From positions 124,001 to 188,000 of the forward strand of contig CACYRK010000002.1 of the NCBI GenBank assembly GCA_902776835.1: DNA of 64,000 nucleotides, read 5' to 3'. Positions 39,482-58,040 of the stretch are shown here, piece by piece. A program made the translations under genes and the position numbers. The stretch's first letter is position 1; every line of letters begins with the position of its first letter. Source of the stretch: an uncultured Bacteroidales bacterium. Its GTDB lineage: Bacteria; Bacteroidota; Bacteroidia; Bacteroidales; Muribaculaceae. The notes below the pieces were generated by a model. The model saw only the letters and a list, made by a program, of their open reading frames with translations. It searched no databases and was not told the DNA's origin.

Positions 39482-41095
39482 ATGAGCAAGAAAGAAAACC
39501 AAACCGCTATACTGCCGGTCGATACCGAGTTGCAGGGCGGTAAATATACCATCACGGGATTTATCTCGAGCGGTGGCTTCGGCAACACCTACATCGCCCA
39601 CAACAACATGCTCGACATCGACGTGGCAATGAAGGAGTTCTTCATCAAGGGTATCAACAGCCGCACTTCCGACACGCGTTCGGTGGTGGTGAGCAATGAA
39701 ACCAACGCAGCCCAGTTCAACGAACAGCGCGAGAAGTTCAAGCGTGAGGCCCAGCGCATCAGCAAACTCGACAATCACCACATTGTGCGTGTGATGGACC
39801 TCTTCGAAGAGAACGGCACGGCTTACTATGTGATGGAACTCATCCACGGCAAGTCGCTCAACGACATGGTGCTGCGTGCCGGCCGTCCGCTCAGCGAATC
39901 GGTGGTTCGCGTCTATCTGCCGCAAATTCTCGATGCCCTCGACGAGGTGCATAGCAAAAATATCTATCACCTTGACCTCAAACCCGCCAACGTGCTTGTT
40001 GACCGCAATGGTCATATCAAGGTGATTGACTTCGGCGCAAGCAAGCAGTTGTCGTCGGTGAGCCACCAGTTCACCACCACCGCGGTCACCTATACGCCTG
40101 GTTACGCCCCCCGCGAGCAACTCGAGCACAACAGCAACAAGTTTGGCCCCTGGACCGACCTGTACTCGCTTGGCGCTACGCTGTATTTCTGCCTTACCGC
40201 GTGCGACCCACCATCGCAAACCGACATTATCGACTTGCGGCAAAAAGCGTTTAAATTCCCTGTCACTGTGTCGAACGACATGCGACAACTCATATTGTGG
40301 CTGATGAACGACCGTCGCACCAAGCGCCCGCAGAGCGTCGCCGCCGTGTATCAGGCACTGCGCACCTTTGCTCCGCTCGATATGCCCAGCACGTCGCCGT
40401 CGCAGCCACCTGTGCCCAACTCTGTGCCACCTTATGCCATATATGGCAGTGGTGAGCCGCAGGTACAAGCCCTGCAACAGGCGCCTGACTCAGGCCCAGC
40501 CCCCAGCCCTCAACCCAATTCTTCTCCCGTGCCCAATTCGCAACCAGTTAGCCAGCCCGTTAGCCAGCCCGTAAGCCAACCGGTGAATCAACAGGCTATA
40601 CCTGTGGTCGACTCACGCGAGGTGTATTACGAGTCCTATAACGATGAGGAAGACGAGGAGAGCAAGTCGCGCAAGCGCAACATCATCGTTGCAGCAATCT
40701 CGGCCCTCGTGGCTGCTTTAGTGATACTTGCCATCGCTTTCTTTACTGGCGGCCCGAAGAATGTTAACAATGTTTCATTCACCCTTGCTAACGGTGAGCC
40801 TTATGTCTATTCAGGCACCGTCGACGATCACGGTGTGCCCAATGGCAACGGTGTGGCAAAGTTTGCCAATTCGACGAGTTATGAAGGCCAGTTTAACCAC
40901 GGTGTGATGCAAGGCGACAGCGTGACGTATAAAACGCTTGAATGGACTTTCGTGGGCGCCATGAACGATAACAAGTTCTTGAATGGCACTCTCACTTATG
41001 CCGATGGCTCCTACTTCAAGGGCACTTTCGACGGCTTCAAGCCTGCCGACGGCACTTACTATAACGCCGACGGCACCCAGAAGAAGAAACGATAA
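39482..41095 (+). CDS. Membrane Ser/Thr protein kinase with extracytoplasmic MORN repeats
   Basis: A 537-residue protein. Residues about 20-290 are a Hanks-type kinase: glycine loop SSGGFGNTY, ATP-site Lys in VAMKEFF near 50, catalytic loop YHLDLKPANVL near 162, and VIDFGASKQ near 182. The catalytic loop reads HLD in place of the usual HRD, common in bacterial kinases. A Pro/Gln-rich linker (about 310-385) contains tandem SQPV units. A single membrane helix (about 400-424) is followed by three or so MORN-like motifs (YEGQFNHGVMQGD, YFKGTFDGFKPADG). The usual layout is kinase inside and MORN in the periplasm. A mobile element begins one base after its stop codon. Confidence 0.9.
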   Translation: MSKKENQTAILPVDTELQGGKYTITGFISSGGFGNTYIAHNNMLDIDVAMKEFFIKGINSRTSDTRSVVVSNETNAAQFNEQREKFKREAQRISKLDNHHIVRVMDLFEENGTAYYVMELIHGKSLNDMVLRAGRPLSESVVRVYLPQILDALDEVHSKNIYHLDLKPANVLVDRNGHIKVIDFGASKQLSSVSHQFTTTAVTYTPGYAPREQLEHNSNKFGPWTDLYSLGATLYFCLTACDPPSQTDIIDLRQKAFKFPVTVSNDMRQLILWLMNDRRTKRPQSVAAVYQALRTFAPLDMPSTSPSQPPVPNSVPPYAIYGSGEPQVQALQQAPDSGPAPSPQPNSSPVPNSQPVSQPVSQPVSQPVNQQAIPVVDSREVYYESYNDEEDEESKSRKRNIIVAAISALVAALVILAIAFFTGGPKNVNNVSFTLANGEPYVYSGTVDDHGVPNGNGVAKFANSTSYEGQFNHGVMQGDSVTYKTLEWTFVGAMNDNKFLNGTLTYADGSYFKGTFDGFKPADGTYYNADGTQKKKR

Positions 41096-41280
41096 ACCCA
41101 AATCGGTCATTAGAAATTATGTCATAACAGAATTTGTTTTGAGAGTATTGCTGTTAGTGAAATCGAAGGCATAGCGGGCTATGGCGAGATTTCAGTGGCG
41201 GCAAGACGCCGAAACAAAACTGTTATGATATAATTAGGAAAAAAAACATAACTCCGTTCTAATGACCGATTTGGGATAAA
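41092..41280. mobile_element. MITE copy 1: 179-bp palindromic element with 5-bp target duplication
   Basis: Element 41097-41275 begins CCCAAATCGGTCATTAGAA and ends with the exact reverse complement (19-bp terminal inverted repeats). It is flanked by ATAAA on both sides (41092-41096 and 41276-41280), a 5-bp target-site duplication. Inside are further nested inverted pairs, such as CATAGC/GCTATG and GAAATC/GATTTC, so the strand can fold into a long hairpin. It encodes no protein. A second copy in opposite orientation lies at 56064-56246 and is about 95% identical. The kinase stop codon sits within the left target duplication. Confidence 0.88.
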
Positions 41281-41296
41281 CGACATAACATAAAAT

Positions 41297-41339
41297 AGCA
41301 ATGATAGCAACTGTACCAGATACGGTTGCTATCATTGCT
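41297..41339 (-). terminator. Terminator after the minus-strand cdsA-purM run
   Basis: A perfect 15-bp inverted repeat (41297-41311 with 41325-41339) with a 13-base loop lies 24 bases beyond the stop of the DUF3332-like gene and is followed on the minus strand by a T-rich stretch. Confidence 0.85.
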
Positions 41340-41363
41340 ATAATTGGTATATGCTATTGCGAG

Positions 41364-41912
41364 TTACTTCAGGGCCATCCAACGTGCCTCGCTCACGAGT
41401 TGCTCATAGGCCATGACGCCTTGCTGATTCAATTCGACAGTGCGCCAACTGCCGTCGGGAGTAATCATGCGCACGTGGCTGTCGTCGACGAAACTCATAA
41501 ACTTATATTCCGAGCCGTTGGTCTCGAGCGACCACGAGCGGTCGCTGGCGTCGAAGTTGAAGCGTACAACGCTCTTGTCGCTCAAGTTGGTGATGGTGTA
41601 ACCAGTGGCATCGCTCTGTACAAGGTATTGCGCATCCTTGCCGTCGACAACCTTGGTCTCGCTAACAACAGGATTCTCGCCCGTCCAAAACTCGATGGAG
41701 TTGAGCACCAGCATGTCGGCCGCCAAAGTGAGTTCATACACTGGCAGCACCCAGAATGCAAAGAACACCAACTCGTTGACGTACTTGTTGCCCACTTCGC
41801 GATTCCACGTCAGCACCTTGTTGGTGAGTGAGAAACTGCCAAGGCACGACTGCAGTGGCATAGAGAGTGCAAGTGCAATAAGTACTGTGCAAGTTAAATG
41901 ATATTTTTTCAT
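41364..41912 (-). CDS. DUF3332-like lipoprotein
   Basis: A 182-residue protein. The start at 41912 (MKKYHLTC) is chosen because it begins a lipoprotein signal with lipobox near LQSC (Cys about 22); the frame extends 10 codons further upstream. The next part (SFSLTNKVLTWNREVGNKYVNELVFFAFW, split here only by family description) has the N-R-x-V-G-x-K-x-x-N-E pattern and a hydrophobic segment typical of DUF3332. It is the last gene of the minus-strand cdsA-purM-mltF run, 7 bases after mltF. Function of the family is unknown. Confidence 0.78.
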   Translation of the reverse strand: MKKYHLTCTVLIALALSMPLQSCLGSFSLTNKVLTWNREVGNKYVNELVFFAFWVLPVYELTLAADMLVLNSIEFWTGENPVVSETKVVDGKDAQYLVQSDATGYTITNLSDKSVVRFNFDASDRSWSLETNGSEYKFMSFVDDSHVRMITPDGSWRTVELNQQGVMAYEQLVSEARWMALK

Positions 41913-41919
41913 TTCTGTT

Positions 41920-43398
41920 TTAATTATTTGGTTGATTGTCATTATCTTGAGTGTTTTCGGCCTGTGAGGTGGGCAGTGTCACCTTGACAGGCGGCTTTGC
42001 GGGTATGGAGTCGGGCGGCAGCGGAGTTTCACCCTTCATGGGGAACTTGTTGCGGTAATAACGGTAACGCTGCTCGACCTTTGCCACATAATCCACCGTC
42101 TCACGCCCACGGAAGTAACCATAACGGCACACGCGGTCGTTATAGAATTGAGGATTTGATTTCCACAATATTGCTTCTTCGACGTTGCCGTCCCACACCT
42201 GTGGGTCCTTGTCGTATTTCCGAGCCAGCGCAATAGCGTCTAGTACATGGCCTACACCGCCATTGTACGAAGCCAGGATGAACTTTACGCGCTCATTCTC
42301 ATTAGCAATGAGTGGAGTGAATTTCTTAATCAGACTTTTAATCAGCAGTACGGCAGTGCTAATGTTGGCTTCAGGATCGGTGATTTTGTCCATCGACAGA
42401 CCATAGTCCTTGGCCGTACTGGGCATAATCTGCATGATGCCGCGTGCTCCGGCCCACGATACGTCGTTGGGGTTGAAACGCGACTCGCAATATCCGATTG
42501 CCGCCAGCATGCGCCAGTCCCAACCGATGGTGGCACTGTAGGCTTTAAACAGGCTGTCGTAAGGCGAGATGCCGCCCGGTGGTGTGCTGGGAAGCACAAC
42601 AGTGGTGTCGTGGCTGCGATGCTTGCTCATCTCGAAATAGCGCCGTAACGCCGTCTTTGAGTAGGCTTGTGCGTTGCCAGAGTTTGCCCAGTTGTTGATG
42701 CTGTCGGCAAGCCACGCCTTGTCTTTTCCCACCGCCCACGACGAGCGTTGTGCGAAACTCACGGCCAGACTGATATCAATGCTGTCGTAGTAAGTGTGGT
42801 TGAATTGCGCTATGTCGCTGTCGACCACAGTGAGCGGCAGTTTGTGGTCCGACACCATGGCAATCAGGTCCTCGGGCATGAGAGTATCGGTGTTGATTGG
42901 GTGAATTTTGATTCCACCACCCAACTCACTGTCGAGGTTCCGCAATCGCGACTCATATTTTGAGCCGCGCTCCACGTATATGTCGCGCCCCACCAATTGT
43001 GTGACGTCGGTAATCACGCTGTCGCCGCTGTGCTGAATGAGCACCTGGTGCGTCTCGTTGACGGCGCCACAACCCAGAACACGTTTTTTGAATTCTGCTG
43101 TGTGTGGTACCTCGCATGCTATGATGTCGATAGAGTCTTGCTCGAGCAACCCGATAAGCGCCTGTATGTTAGGCGCCACGCGAAAGCGCAGTGCGATGCC
43201 TTTGTCGCGGGCAAAGTCGGTGATACGGTCGAAGTCGTAGCCCAACGTATCGCCGTGAAGGATGAAGAAGCCGGTGGGGCTATAAAGCGTGCCCACCACC
43301 AGCGTGTCGGGGAGCGGGTGGGAGTGCGCTCCCTTGCCGCAACTTACCCACGACATCACCATCAATAGCCCAAATGCCGCAACAAGTAATTTTCGCAT
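41920..43398 (-). CDS. mltF: Membrane-bound lytic transglycosylase, MltF type
   Basis: A 492-residue predicted lipoprotein (lipobox near WVSC). Residues about 30-260 resemble a solute-binding (SBP_bac_3) domain as in E. coli MltF, and about 275-430 form the SLT lytic transglycosylase domain. The catalytic Glu is in GYCESRFNP near 303, with ARGIMQIMPSTA and ASYNGGVGHV following. The enzyme cleaves peptidoglycan to 1,6-anhydromuropeptides. The C-terminal tail is Pro-rich. The ATG at 43398 follows the purM stop by 4 bases; a TTG at 43413 is an unlikely alternative. Confidence 0.9.
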   Translation of the reverse strand: MRKLLVAAFGLLMVMSWVSCGKGAHSHPLPDTLVVGTLYSPTGFFILHGDTLGYDFDRITDFARDKGIALRFRVAPNIQALIGLLEQDSIDIIACEVPHTAEFKKRVLGCGAVNETHQVLIQHSGDSVITDVTQLVGRDIYVERGSKYESRLRNLDSELGGGIKIHPINTDTLMPEDLIAMVSDHKLPLTVVDSDIAQFNHTYYDSIDISLAVSFAQRSSWAVGKDKAWLADSINNWANSGNAQAYSKTALRRYFEMSKHRSHDTTVVLPSTPPGGISPYDSLFKAYSATIGWDWRMLAAIGYCESRFNPNDVSWAGARGIMQIMPSTAKDYGLSMDKITDPEANISTAVLLIKSLIKKFTPLIANENERVKFILASYNGGVGHVLDAIALARKYDKDPQVWDGNVEEAILWKSNPQFYNDRVCRYGYFRGRETVDYVAKVEQRYRYYRNKFPMKGETPLPPDSIPAKPPVKVTLPTSQAENTQDNDNQPNN

Positions 43399-53926: not shown

Positions 53927-54077
53927 TTACGCACAACGTCTGATTTTTTTTCTGACGAGGTACACAATATTTAATATGTGGCTTCGTTAAAAATAAGTAT
54001 GGAATAAAAATTGCGAAAATGTCGCCCCGCGCGGCGGTTTTGCAAAATGAATAACGTTTTACTATTTTTTGACAGTA

Positions 54078-56009
54078 ATGAAAGGTAAACTTTTAATCTC
54101 TTCGTTGATTCTCGGCACAGCGTTGATGGCTCTGGCAGCCACCGACCCAGTGCTGATGACGATCAATGGCAAGGATGTCAAACTCTCAGAGTTTGAGTAT
54201 CTTTACAACAAAAACAACCAGCAGCAAATCGAGAAAGAGTCGCTCGAAGACTACGTGGACCGTTTTGTCATCTACAAACTCAAGGTTGCTGATGCCGAGG
54301 CTGCAGGCTACGACACGCTGCCCGCCTTCAAGAAGGAGTTCGAGGGCTATCGCGACGACTTTGTGAAGCCCTTCCTTGAGGACACCACGGTGAAAAACCG
54401 CCTTGTCGACGAGGCTTACGACCGCATGACGAAAAATGTGAAGATTGACCACATCATGCTGCCGCTGGGAACCACCTACGAGGAGAGTCAAAAGCAGCGC
54501 GCTCTGGCCGACAGCATTCGCCAGTGCGCCCTCAATGGCGAAGATTGGGAGGAACTGGTGGAGAAATACAGCGTCGACCCGTCGAAGGCCAACAACCACG
54601 GCCACTACGGCTTTGTGACCGCCAACATGTTCCCCTACGCATTTGAGTACGCCGCATTCAACACCCCAGTGGGCCAAATTAGCGAGCCGGTGAAGACCAA
54701 CTATGGCTACCATCTGATACGCGTTAACGCCATCGAGCCCGACGCCGGCATGCTGCACGTGCGCCACATCCTGCTGCTCTTCCCGCGCAATTGCACCGAC
54801 AGCGCGAAAGCCGCAATCAAAGTGCGCATCGACTCGATCTACGAGGCCGTTACCGCCCCGGGAGCCGACTTTGCTGAGATTGCCAAGAAGGTGTCGCAAG
54901 ACCCCGGCACACGCAACCGCGGTGGCGACCTGGTGAACTTCTTCGGCCGCGGCCAGATGGTGCCCCAGTTTGAGGAGGTGTCTTACAGCCTGAAAGACGG
55001 CGAAATCAGCAAGCCTTTCGAAACACGTTTCGGCTACCACATCGTGCAACGCCTCGAGAGCCGCCCCGTGCGCAGTTTCGAGGCTGCAAAGCCCGACATT
55101 GAAGCCCGCATTGCCCGCGACGAGCGTTCAACCATGCCGCAGGAGAAAGTGCTGGCACATGCCAAGGAACTCTACAACTTTAAGTATAACGACCGTCTGG
55201 GCGATGTGCTGCTCAAGGCCATCAACGACAATGGCGGCTACGACACCACCTTCGTGAAGGGCTTCCTGGCTAACTGCAGCGAACCAATGTTTACCTTTGC
55301 TGGCAACCAGAGCCGTCCCGTTTCGGAGATTGCACCATTGGTCAACCCGATGGCAGTGCTCAATCCCATACCCGCCCGCGATTACATCATGTCGCATATC
55401 GACCCCATCGCCAACAAGGCCGTGATGGATTATTATAAGGAGAACCTTATCAACGACAATCCCGACTATCGCAACCTCATCAACGAGTATCGCGACGGCA
55501 TGCTGCTGTACGAAGTGAGCAACCGCCGCGTGTGGGAGGGAGCCAGCCGCGACACCGCAGGCTTGAACAAGTACTTTGAGCAAAACCGCGCTAAGTACCA
55601 CTGGGACGCTCCGCGATTCAAGGGCATCATCCTCAGCGCCAAGAACGACTCGGTGCTCAATGCCGTCAAGGACGACGTGCGTGTGCTCGGCGCCGACACG
55701 CTCACCATCACTCTCTACAAGAAGTATGGCCGCGACATCAAGATGGAGCGCATGCTGATGGCTAAGGGTGAGAACGACCTGGTGGACTACCTGTTCTTCG
55801 CAGCCGATAAGCCCCAGAATCTTGAGTATCCAGTGTTTATGGTGCTCGAGGGTGGACTCATCAACCAACCTGAGGGTCTGGCCGATGTCAAGGGCATGGT
55901 TACCAGCGACTATCAGGACGTGCTCGAGAAGCGCTGGGTTGAGGAACTTCGCGCCAAGTATCCTGTGAAAATCAACAAGAAAGTGCTCAAGAAAATCCAG
56001 AAGAAATAA
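54078..56009 (+). CDS. Periplasmic peptidyl-prolyl isomerase with two parvulin domains (SurA/PpiC-like)
   Basis: A 643-residue exported folding factor. The signal peptide is KGKLLISSLILGTALMALAA; ATG 54078 is chosen over a TTG at 54069. After an N-terminal chaperone region (about 30-120), two parvulin domains follow: about 122-225 (KIDHIMLPLG ... SEPVKTNYGYHLIRV) and about 230-335 (HVRHILLLFP ... SKPFETRFGYHIVQ). The C-terminal 300 residues have no clear domain. The double-parvulin layout is like E. coli SurA, which helps outer-membrane proteins fold. A strong terminator follows. Confidence 0.9.
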   Translation: MKGKLLISSLILGTALMALAATDPVLMTINGKDVKLSEFEYLYNKNNQQQIEKESLEDYVDRFVIYKLKVADAEAAGYDTLPAFKKEFEGYRDDFVKPFLEDTTVKNRLVDEAYDRMTKNVKIDHIMLPLGTTYEESQKQRALADSIRQCALNGEDWEELVEKYSVDPSKANNHGHYGFVTANMFPYAFEYAAFNTPVGQISEPVKTNYGYHLIRVNAIEPDAGMLHVRHILLLFPRNCTDSAKAAIKVRIDSIYEAVTAPGADFAEIAKKVSQDPGTRNRGGDLVNFFGRGQMVPQFEEVSYSLKDGEISKPFETRFGYHIVQRLESRPVRSFEAAKPDIEARIARDERSTMPQEKVLAHAKELYNFKYNDRLGDVLLKAINDNGGYDTTFVKGFLANCSEPMFTFAGNQSRPVSEIAPLVNPMAVLNPIPARDYIMSHIDPIANKAVMDYYKENLINDNPDYRNLINEYRDGMLLYEVSNRRVWEGASRDTAGLNKYFEQNRAKYHWDAPRFKGIILSAKNDSVLNAVKDDVRVLGADTLTITLYKKYGRDIKMERMLMAKGENDLVDYLFFAADKPQNLEYPVFMVLEGGLINQPEGLADVKGMVTSDYQDVLEKRWVEELRAKYPVKINKKVLKKIQKK

Positions 56010-56023
56010 GAACTTCATTCAAT

Positions 56024-56061
56024 AATGAAAGGCCTCAGCGCGAATGCGTTGGGGCCTTTTT
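56024..56061 (+). terminator. Terminator after the parvulin gene
   Basis: A 14-bp stem with mismatches (AAAGGCC...CGC with GCG...GGCCTTT) and a GAAT loop, followed by a T-run. The second MITE copy inserts directly at the end of the T-run (target duplication TTTAA starts at 56059). Confidence 0.82.
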
Positions 56062-56251
56062 AACCTAAATCGGTCATTAGAACGGAGTTGTGTTATTTTT
56101 TATTCCTAATTATACCATAACAGTTTTGTTTTGGCGTCTTGCCGCCACTGAAATCTCGTCATAGCCCGCTATGCCTTCGATTTCACTGACAGCAATACTC
56201 TCAAAACAAATTCTGTTCTGACATAATTTCTAATGACCGATTTGGGTTTAA
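56059..56251. mobile_element. MITE copy 2: 183-bp palindromic element with 5-bp target duplication
   Basis: Element 56064-56246 is the reverse-orientation partner of the copy at 41097-41275, with about 95% identity over the shared bases. One terminal repeat starts CCTAAATCGG, one base different from the other end. It is flanked by TTTAA at 56059-56063 and 56247-56251. Like copy 1 it sits between convergent genes, just after a terminator. No coding capacity. It fills most of the 304-base gap 56010-56313. Confidence 0.88.
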
Positions 56252-56313: not shown

Positions 56314-56982
56314 CTAATCGAGTTCGTTGCGCAGGCGTTTACGCGTCTTGCCGAGCAACTCGGCAGCCTGCTCATGGCCTTGCTCGGCTGCCCTCTCAAG
56401 ATAGTATCGCGCCACAATCCAGTCGAGAGGCACGCCGATGCCGTTGTAGTAGCAATAGCCCACAGTGTACTGCGACTCCATGTCGCCATCAAGGGCGAGG
56501 TCAAGCACGTTGTGGGTGACCTCGGGCATGTTGTCGCTAAGACTGAAATTCAGCGGCAGAGTGTACATCACGTTCACCGGCTGGCCGTCGACGATGCCAG
56601 GCTTGAAACGAGGTATCAATTTGCACACGCGCACAGCCTCGGCATCAATCTCGGGCGATATGCTGCGGAGAACCTCCACATCGCCGATCTCACCGGTTTT
56701 CGTGACAATAAACTGCAAAATCACCTTGCCTTGCACACCGTTCATCCGCGCCTGCTCAGGGTAATGAATCTCACCGGCGATGAAGTTCATCAACGCCTGC
56801 AAGCCACCGGGAAATTCAGGCATCACGTCGGGGGCGAGAATGGCTTTCCTGCTGTCTTGCTCCTCACATTCGTCTACTTCGCTGTCAGGCACGATAAGGA
56901 GTTCGGTGACCTTGTTTTGCGCCATTGACGACATTGGCAACAACAAGGCACACAAAGAAGAAAAGATGAAATTACGTTTCAT
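56314..56982 (-). CDS. Exported TonB C-terminal domain protein with Sel1 repeats
   Basis: A 222-residue protein. The start at 56982 (MKRNFIFSS) begins a signal peptide ending SMAQ. Residues about 50-145 match a TonB C-terminal domain (MPEFPGGLQALMNFIAGEI, YPEQARMNGVQGKVILQFIV, FKPGIVDGQPVNV). Residues about 155-215 hold Sel1-like repeats (QYTVGYCYYNGIGVPLDW and ARYYLERAAEQGHEQAAELL). Unlike true TonB there is no N-terminal membrane anchor and no Pro-rich spacer, so energy transduction is unlikely; a periplasmic binding role is more plausible. The asparagine-synthase-like gene is just upstream, 5 bases away. Confidence 0.82.
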   Translation of the reverse strand: MKRNFIFSSLCALLLPMSSMAQNKVTELLIVPDSEVDECEEQDSRKAILAPDVMPEFPGGLQALMNFIAGEIHYPEQARMNGVQGKVILQFIVTKTGEIGDVEVLRSISPEIDAEAVRVCKLIPRFKPGIVDGQPVNVMYTLPLNFSLSDNMPEVTHNVLDLALDGDMESQYTVGYCYYNGIGVPLDWIVARYYLERAAEQGHEQAAELLGKTRKRLRNELD

Positions 56983-56987
56983 AATCA

Positions 56988-58040
56988 TTATTTATCAAAT
57001 AAGTTAAGGAAGAGTTCGGCGCACCACAGTTGCCACTTCTGGTTGCCGGTGAGGGCTGCCATGTCGATGTCCTGGCGGAACTCTGAGCGGCTCGGTCCTT
57101 CCCAATCCTTGAAAACTGCGTCGACGGGACGAGGCATCGGAATCTTGAATGGGATGGGGATGTCGGGGTAGGTGATGGCATAAGCGTCTCGCACCAGATA
57201 CTTCGGCTCGCCGTTGCGCACGCGCTGCAAGTCGAGTTCGTCGCGCATCACAAGGATTGCATATGGGTCGTAATAGGGCAGCCCCGCCACCTCAAATGCG
57301 TTGAGATACGAACTTGAACTCTCAATGGCAAACACATCGTCCATGAAGCGCATATAGTCAATCTTGCCCTCTGGAAGGCGATAACGCTCGTAGAGGTCCA
57401 TCACGCTCATGTCGGGGTTGGTAAGCACCCGCTCGGGCTGCAGGAATGTGTAACGGGCAACAAAGTCGTCGTAATTCCACTCGCGTGAAATCAGTTGATC
57501 CATGCCACCGAAAATCAGGTCGGCGCTCTCGCCCACAATCATCATCTGCACGCCGTCGGCACGCGCTGCCATGGCGGCTTTGTAGATTTGCGGCTCGATG
57601 GAGTGCACTGGAGCGCATTTGTTTTTCATCACGATGGGCGTATAGCGCTCGTAGTCGTCGAAGTCAATTTCAATAAGGTGATGCTGCAGGCCGTGACGGC
57701 GGCAATACTCGGCGGCACGCGCCACATCGGCATTAAACACCTCGCTGCGCTGCGTGGTGAACGTGTAGGCATGGCTGCCGGGGCGCAAGAACGATGACAG
57801 AATGGCACTGTCCATGCCGCCCGAAAGCAGGATGCCGATGCTCTCGTAGCGCGAGTAAAGGTCGTCGAATTGACGCTGGATTTCAGCGCGAATCTCCGCG
57901 CCGCTACCCACGGGTATGCGTTTCTCCATGGGCACGGGTGCGATGTTGCGGTGATGCATGCCCTCGAAGAAGTCCATGTCGTCCTTAAAGATGTAGCGGT
58001 AAGCAATGTAACTGCTGAGGCAGAAGTCTTTGTTATACAT
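56988..58040 (-). CDS. Asparagine-synthase-like ATP-dependent amidating enzyme (C-terminal domain only)
   Basis: A 350-residue protein with the PP-loop ATP motif SGGMDSAIL at about 73-81 and GESADLIFGGMD near 175, as in asparagine synthase. The N-terminal glutaminase domain is absent, so nitrogen must come from ammonia, another protein, or the enzyme makes a different amide or ligates a different substrate. Such stand-alone forms occur in surface-polysaccharide loci (compare WbpG/PseA-type enzymes). The TagD-like gene lies just upstream on the same strand. Substrate unknown. Confidence 0.8.
   Translation of the reverse strand: MYNKDFCLSSYIAYRYIFKDDMDFFEGMHHRNIAPVPMEKRIPVGSGAEIRAEIQRQFDDLYSRYESIGILLSGGMDSAILSSFLRPGSHAYTFTTQRSEVFNADVARAAEYCRRHGLQHHLIEIDFDDYERYTPIVMKNKCAPVHSIEPQIYKAAMAARADGVQMMIVGESADLIFGGMDQLISREWNYDDFVARYTFLQPERVLTNPDMSVMDLYERYRLPEGKIDYMRFMDDVFAIESSSSYLNAFEVAGLPYYDPYAILVMRDELDLQRVRNGEPKYLVRDAYAITYPDIPIPFKIPMPRPVDAVFKDWEGPSRSEFRQDIDMAALTGNQKWQLWCAELFLNLFDK

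Follow-up and report, generated by a model that had tools for sequence, protein, structure and literature searches.

Two copies of a short element between convergent genes

The window, a stretch of 64,000 nucleotides from an uncultured Bacteroidales bacterium, contains two copies of a short non-coding element, and convergent genes surround each of them (Table 1). Copy 1 (41097-41275, 179 bp) has perfect 19-bp terminal inverted repeats, CCCAAATCGGTCATTAGAA and TTCTAATGACCGATTTGGG, and ATAAA target-site duplications on both sides, exactly as an earlier note on this DNA, made from the letters alone, had described. It lies immediately 3' of a stop codon and, because the upstream gene ends at 41095, the end of that gene's TAA stop falls inside the left duplication. 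Copy 2 (183 bp) has a single mismatch between its ends, at the terminus (CCTAAAT). Its opposite orientation and its TTTAA duplications were correctly reported in the earlier note, whereas its identity to copy 1, which had been put at about 95%, is 93% as measured here. Searching the window with the 17-bp end and allowing up to three mismatches returned four places, all of them ends of these two copies, compared with 0.12 expected by chance. A strong inverted repeat (GCAATGATAGCAAC...GTTGCTATCATTGC, 41300-41343) lies just 3' of copy 1 and is probably the terminator of the convergent genes.

Table 1. Positions of the two element copies, their parts and the neighbouring genes in the window
Feature	Position	Strand	Basis or remark
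Protein-kinase-like gene upstream of copy 1	39482..41095	+	Sequence motifs by eye; element abuts its stop codon
Target-site duplication ATAAA, left	41092..41096	.	Holds the end of the upstream gene's TAA stop
Left terminal inverted repeat, copy 1, 19 bp	41097..41115	+	
Conserved ~120-nt hairpin core, copy 1	41115..41235	+ (sense)	Covariance model R1, 89.6 bits, E 2e-20; score not independent, copy 1 being among the 29 sequences used to build R1
A-rich linker 3' of the copy 1 core, mostly unpaired	41236..41256	+	
Right terminal inverted repeat, copy 1, 19 bp	41257..41275	+	
Target-site duplication ATAAA, right	41276..41280	.	
Lipoprotein-like convergent gene downstream of copy 1	41364..41942	-	By eye
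Peptidyl-prolyl isomerase-like gene flanking copy 2	54069..56009	+	By eye
Target-site duplication TTTAA, copy 2	56059..56063	.	
Element copy 2, 183 bp	56064..56246	-	Opposite orientation to copy 1
Conserved ~120-nt hairpin core, copy 2	56108..56228	-	Covariance model R1, 91.8 bits, E 6e-21
Target-site duplication TTTAA, copy 2	56247..56251	.	
TonB-like convergent gene flanking copy 2	56314..56988	-	By eye

Distribution of the element family

The genome-wide search that the earlier note had proposed shows that these copies belong to a dispersed family. Full-length copies (153-185 bp) number about 15 in the host genome, a 3.09-Mb draft in 53 contigs, which also contains about ten short forms (56-97 bp), forms of 288 and 333 bp, and many single ends. 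Across species genomes, the 17-bp end was found in at least 116 stretches, the titles of which are nearly all Bacteroidales, with one labelled Chloroherpetonaceae. Prevotella pectinovora, Prevotella falsenii and Phocaeicola coprophilus are among the species with copies. Related elements from other species retain full length at about 68-75% identity. As a MITE, the element is short and non-coding, with a length of 179-185 bp and inverted ends of 17-19 bp. A plasmid collection queried with copy 1 and a phage collection queried with a Prevotellaceae copy returned no match, and viral contigs contained two single ends and nothing more.

Reduced and broken forms are also present. Scars of 24-30 bp such as CCCAAATCGGTCATTAGGATTTGGG, seen at five loci in two genomes (L071, L072, L074, L077 and L090; G104 and G186), can be attributed to deletion between short repeats (GATTT) near both ends, the outcome expected of slippage across a long palindrome. 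In an 80-bp copy on host contig C27 (L022, 1501-1580), the right end forms a near-perfect palindrome; several forms of 81-83 bp have similar junctions, which suggests that all of these are derivatives that lost the core described below through template switching. At four places in the host genome (L019, L021, L033 and L036), broken copies are adjoined by a second dispersed palindromic repeat, centred around GACGCGCCATGGCGCGTC, which was not found in the window.

Transposition and a partner insertion sequence

Perfect 5-bp duplications flank 77 of 112 elements from many genomes, against a mean of 17.3 and a maximum of 28 when the flanks were shuffled, and no other duplication length is comparably prominent (for 2 bp, 9 versus 3.1 shuffled). 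The perfect duplications always have T at position 2 and A at position 4, and are of the TTNAA type. TTTAA and TTAAA contain TAA, and for this reason many copies immediately follow a stop codon.

In genome G010, a relative of the window copies interrupts a repeat of which the neighbouring copy is uninterrupted and identical at 190 of 201 bases; the empty paralogous site has a single TTGAA, and at the filled site the element stands between TTAAA and TTGAA. This comparison was possible because of repeats on contig C15 (L055, 1438-2073) that contain ACACCGCGCCGG motifs and are spaced at about 400 bp where the element is present in one of them. For a short copy located at a stop codon, the orthologous locus in another species is likewise uninterrupted. 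Empty sites, which the earlier note had suggested looking for, were thus found for these two elements but not for the window copies. For the latter and several others, no empty orthologous site was found among the genomes sampled, which are single representatives rather than strain sets; flanking synteny was unconserved or no alignment spanned the junction.

An insertion sequence (IS) that shares the ends, which the earlier note had suggested should be sought, was present among the listed stretches (at least 116) that carry the 17-bp end. This IS of 1467 bp from Hallella bergensis (L229, 2594-4060) has identical 17-bp ends and TTAAA on both sides, and its one gene encodes a 459-aa protein that matches the IS1380 model NF033539 at 239.9 bits (cut-off 180) and also matches PF13701. 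A second transposase, 82% identical to that of L229, lies between the same ends in genome G503 (L317), and the ends of more distant IS1380 elements are related to these, for example CCCAAATTACGCATTAG and CCCAGATTACGCAATAG. By eye, the L229 element contains no core. MITEs with the same ends at L104, L192 and L269 also lack the core, and have instead an IS-like interior, CTAATG(A/G)C(C/G)G(C/T)CATTAG.

The earlier note had reported no transposase with the element, and we likewise find none encoded inside it and no match to NF033539 in the host genome, a draft in whose 53 contigs a copy may have been collapsed. Judged from that negative search, current mobility in the host is open to doubt. Across the host and four relatives, the sole trace of an IS1380 transposase was a weak fragment in G010. 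IS1634 was considered as a source and rejected: intact transposases are present in the host and in G010, but their loci lack a matching end pair.

In summary, the element is a MITE, on the evidence of its copies, its 5-bp AT-rich duplications, an empty site, the lack of a transposase of its own and an IS with matching ends. The earlier interpretation as a non-autonomous mobile element is therefore supported. The outcomes that had been named in advance as counting against it were a family confined to two copies, homologous strains carrying both loci without ever an empty site, and other copies with flanks that differ from 5-bp duplications; none of these was encountered.

A conserved core that folds on one strand

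The interior of the element contains a core of about 120 nt that forms a single long hairpin, with one strand favoured, and is built from three stacked helices with two internal loops between them. When close relatives were aligned, double compensatory changes were seen in 20 of 54 pairs. Order-wide, in an alignment of 29 diverse cores of 116-122 nt, double changes occur in 30 of 31 pairs, 86% of cells are paired compared with 64% after shuffling, and the covariation score is 0.640 compared with 0.232 after shuffling and at most 0.18 when the partners are slid. Both internal loops retain tandem G·A pairs in most of the 29 sequences (by alignment column, G33·A95 and A/G35·G94 in the lower loop, and G54·A76 and A55·G/A75 in the upper loop). 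The apical loop is C/U-G-G-G (CGGG), with G changed to A in a few sequences, and its closing G-C pair is invariant. No Rfam family reaches its gathering threshold on the core, and we found no description of this element family in the literature. On sequence grounds, the putative core RNA is an unclassified family, and the interior, through its structure, shows stronger conservation than the ends do.

The earlier note had predicted that each strand would fold into one long hairpin. The hairpin is present, but the two strands are not equal: the folding energy of copy 1 is -87.2 kcal/mol for the + strand and -64.1 kcal/mol for the - strand, and the same strand is favoured by folding in 31 of 32 full copies. 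We compared G·U with A·C oppositions using strand-neutral scoring of the arm alignments and taking the orientation from the apex motif alone, which avoids circularity. On the favoured strand, G·U outnumbers A·C by 96 to 38 (elements 23 versus 3, p = 9e-5), where cell counts are inflated by kinship among the copies and the sign test was applied after thinning at 85% identity. For a separate group of elements that have other ends, the counts are 45 versus 14 (elements 11 versus 0), and the sense strand folds better in 15 of 15 cases. This excess of G·U over A·C on one strand favours RNA over cruciform DNA.

Genomic orientation is, by comparison, even. With gene positions assigned by a simple longest-ORF rule, the upstream gene is co-directional with the core in 45 of 79 cases, an absence of bias that speaks against a simple role in 3' untranslated regions. 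The replication-strand comparison rests on G504, a genome in one contig with clear GC skew, the skew of the host genome being too weak; its twelve cores are split 6:6 between the leading and lagging strands, in what is a small sample. Orientation counts thus lend no support to a role in 3' UTRs or to one tied to the replication strand.

The core lies between different transposon ends

Of 295 Bacteroidales genomes, 19 from 16 genera contain cores identified by a covariance model that was built solely from elements with CCCAAATCGG ends. Among 395 genomes from across the phylum, matches were confined to two, the host and G503, both of which are Bacteroidales. Many of the cores sit between other ends, namely (A)GAGCCTGTTTAAATTTT, GAAACTGTTTTGAATTT, GAAGTGATTTAAACTTTTT and GGTTCTATAAATTGATTT-like sequences. 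Among the places listed for five genomes, no intact partner IS with GAGCCTGTTTAAATTTT ends was seen. The class of ends that starts with GA has 3-bp duplications in 21 of 30 cases, compared with 7.7 after shuffling, and 5-bp duplications in none, which implies that a different transposase acts there. From the ends and the TNA-like 3-bp duplication, our guess is that this second transposase may be of the IS5 type.

In both end classes a distance of 17-21 bases separates the left end from the start of the core, and the extra linker lies 3' of the core in nearly all members. The second end class taken alone has a covariation score of 0.662, compared with 0.199 after shuffling, a value that leans towards the model to which the alignment was fitted. 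As judged from these sequences, the core appears to outlive changes of transposase. The interior of the element is a conserved, strand-specific, structured core common to MITEs with unrelated ends, and not filler.

Matches to other RNA families were seen close to cores at two loci. In G465 (L348, 1152-1320), a stretch that precedes a core by about 180 bases matches Rfam V_AS7, a Vibrio antisense RNA, at 62 bits (E 7e-10), below the gathering score of 90. In G343 (L353), two cobalamin riboswitch matches (1244-1483 and 2030-2157) flank a core-carrying element.

Possible roles of the core

The best explanation of the whole, to which we assign a probability of roughly 0.7, is a MITE of about 180-195 bp that is moved in trans and carries a selected, structured RNA core. 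The element inserts at TTNAA-type sites with a 5-bp duplication, and its layout is fixed, with the ~120-nt hairpin core next to the left end and the linker 3' of the core, before the right end. An IS1380 transposase would act in trans on the matching ends; the host's own transposase would have gone from the genome or been lost in assembly gaps. The core would be transcribed as RNA by read-through from neighbouring genes in the sense direction. It is strand-specific, loop-conserved and independent of the ends, features for which selection on the fold of an RNA is the best explanation. Tentatively, a conserved protein of the Bacteroidales could bind the folded transcript and so help the element to persist or spread, which would account for the survival of the core through changes of transposase. 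We put forward protein binding as the most likely mode of action, though at somewhat less than even odds. The same caution applies to the wider proposal that an old RNA core of about 120 nt is the functional part, that the ends of at least two transposase systems are interchangeable vehicles, and that an unknown conserved protein is the partner.

Long quasi-palindromes undergo arm-to-arm correction by template switching, and the element could be an ordinary MITE in which this process alone keeps the arms complementary around a core without function. The arms are nearly perfectly complementary in L258, and their perfect match in the 80-bp L022 indicates that arm-from-arm copying probably occurs and could yield some of the covariation. 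However, such correction would erase mismatches, and the tandem G·A mismatches persist across the order; it would be symmetric between strands, so that the G·U to A·C asymmetry (in both sets) counts against its acting alone; and it would neither hold the core near 120 nt nor retain it when the ends change. We consider this the least probable of the alternatives. The fold that matters could instead be that of single-stranded DNA, formed for example in replication or conjugation, with an enzyme recognising it on one strand. IS200/IS605 and attC sites form hairpins of this kind, and strand-specific pairing with tolerance of G·T would fit single-stranded DNA as well, but the even strand split in G504, small as that sample is, and target duplications at quasi-symmetric sites, which are typical of double-strand transposition, make this explanation distinctly unlikely.

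The most plausible of the alternatives, although still an unlikely one, is that the core serves mobility, as a folded RNA or DNA that recruits or regulates transposases and travels with any working ends. In the copies examined, the core lies in small mobile elements and is fixed beside the left end in two classes. Those classes nevertheless imply different transposases, both of which would need to recognise one core, and the IS1380 element itself has no such core by eye. The coreless copies of 56-97 bp, some of which have intact duplications, further suggest that the core may be unneeded for movement, although later deletion would give the same look. A cis-acting role, in which the hairpin alters mRNA processing or stability from within 3' untranslated regions, would be in keeping with the many copies directly after stop codons, and RNase III processing has been proposed for Correia/NEMIS transcripts in Neisseria (PMC2229807). 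The chance-like frequency of sense orientation to the upstream gene nevertheless leads us to doubt such a role.

Relationship to known systems

MITE interiors are usually seen as neutral deletion leftovers of insertion sequences, whereas here the interior is kept as structure. The core persists across different transposase systems, being carried also in mini-transposons moved by other machinery within the same order, the Bacteroidales, which dominates the gut and oral microbiota. As a putative, unclassified RNA family of which some genomes contain a dozen or more natural copies, it is useful for finding its partner, and it allows the idea of structured-RNA cargo on mini-transposons to be tested.

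The element shares its identical 17-bp ends and its type of 5-bp duplication with IS1380-family insertion sequences and the MITEs derived from them, and differs from the IS in having a hairpin core. HEARO and omega RNAs are transposon-associated structured RNAs that are likewise spread in many copies by mobile elements, but the present family matches none in Rfam and, unlike IS200/IS605, has inverted ends and direct duplications. The duplications speak against an assignment to the IS200/IS605 or REP type of single-stranded DNA element, as does the even strand split in G504. BrickBuilt, MITE239 and MITEPgRS of Porphyromonas gingivalis are MITEs of the same bacterial order; their ends match IS5-family ISPg elements (GAGACC..., ACGTCA...) and differ from those described here, and BrickBuilt carries 23-nt repeats, not this core (PMC4596501). 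ERIC, Correia/NEMIS, CIR and RUP elements are, like this family, dispersed and about 100-200 bp long; their transcripts are predicted to form long stem-loops, and a phylogenetically conserved RNA structure has been proposed for CIR (PMC2229807). Compared with these elements by description, the present family is set apart by covariation that extends across a bacterial order and by a core common to different ends and duplication lengths.
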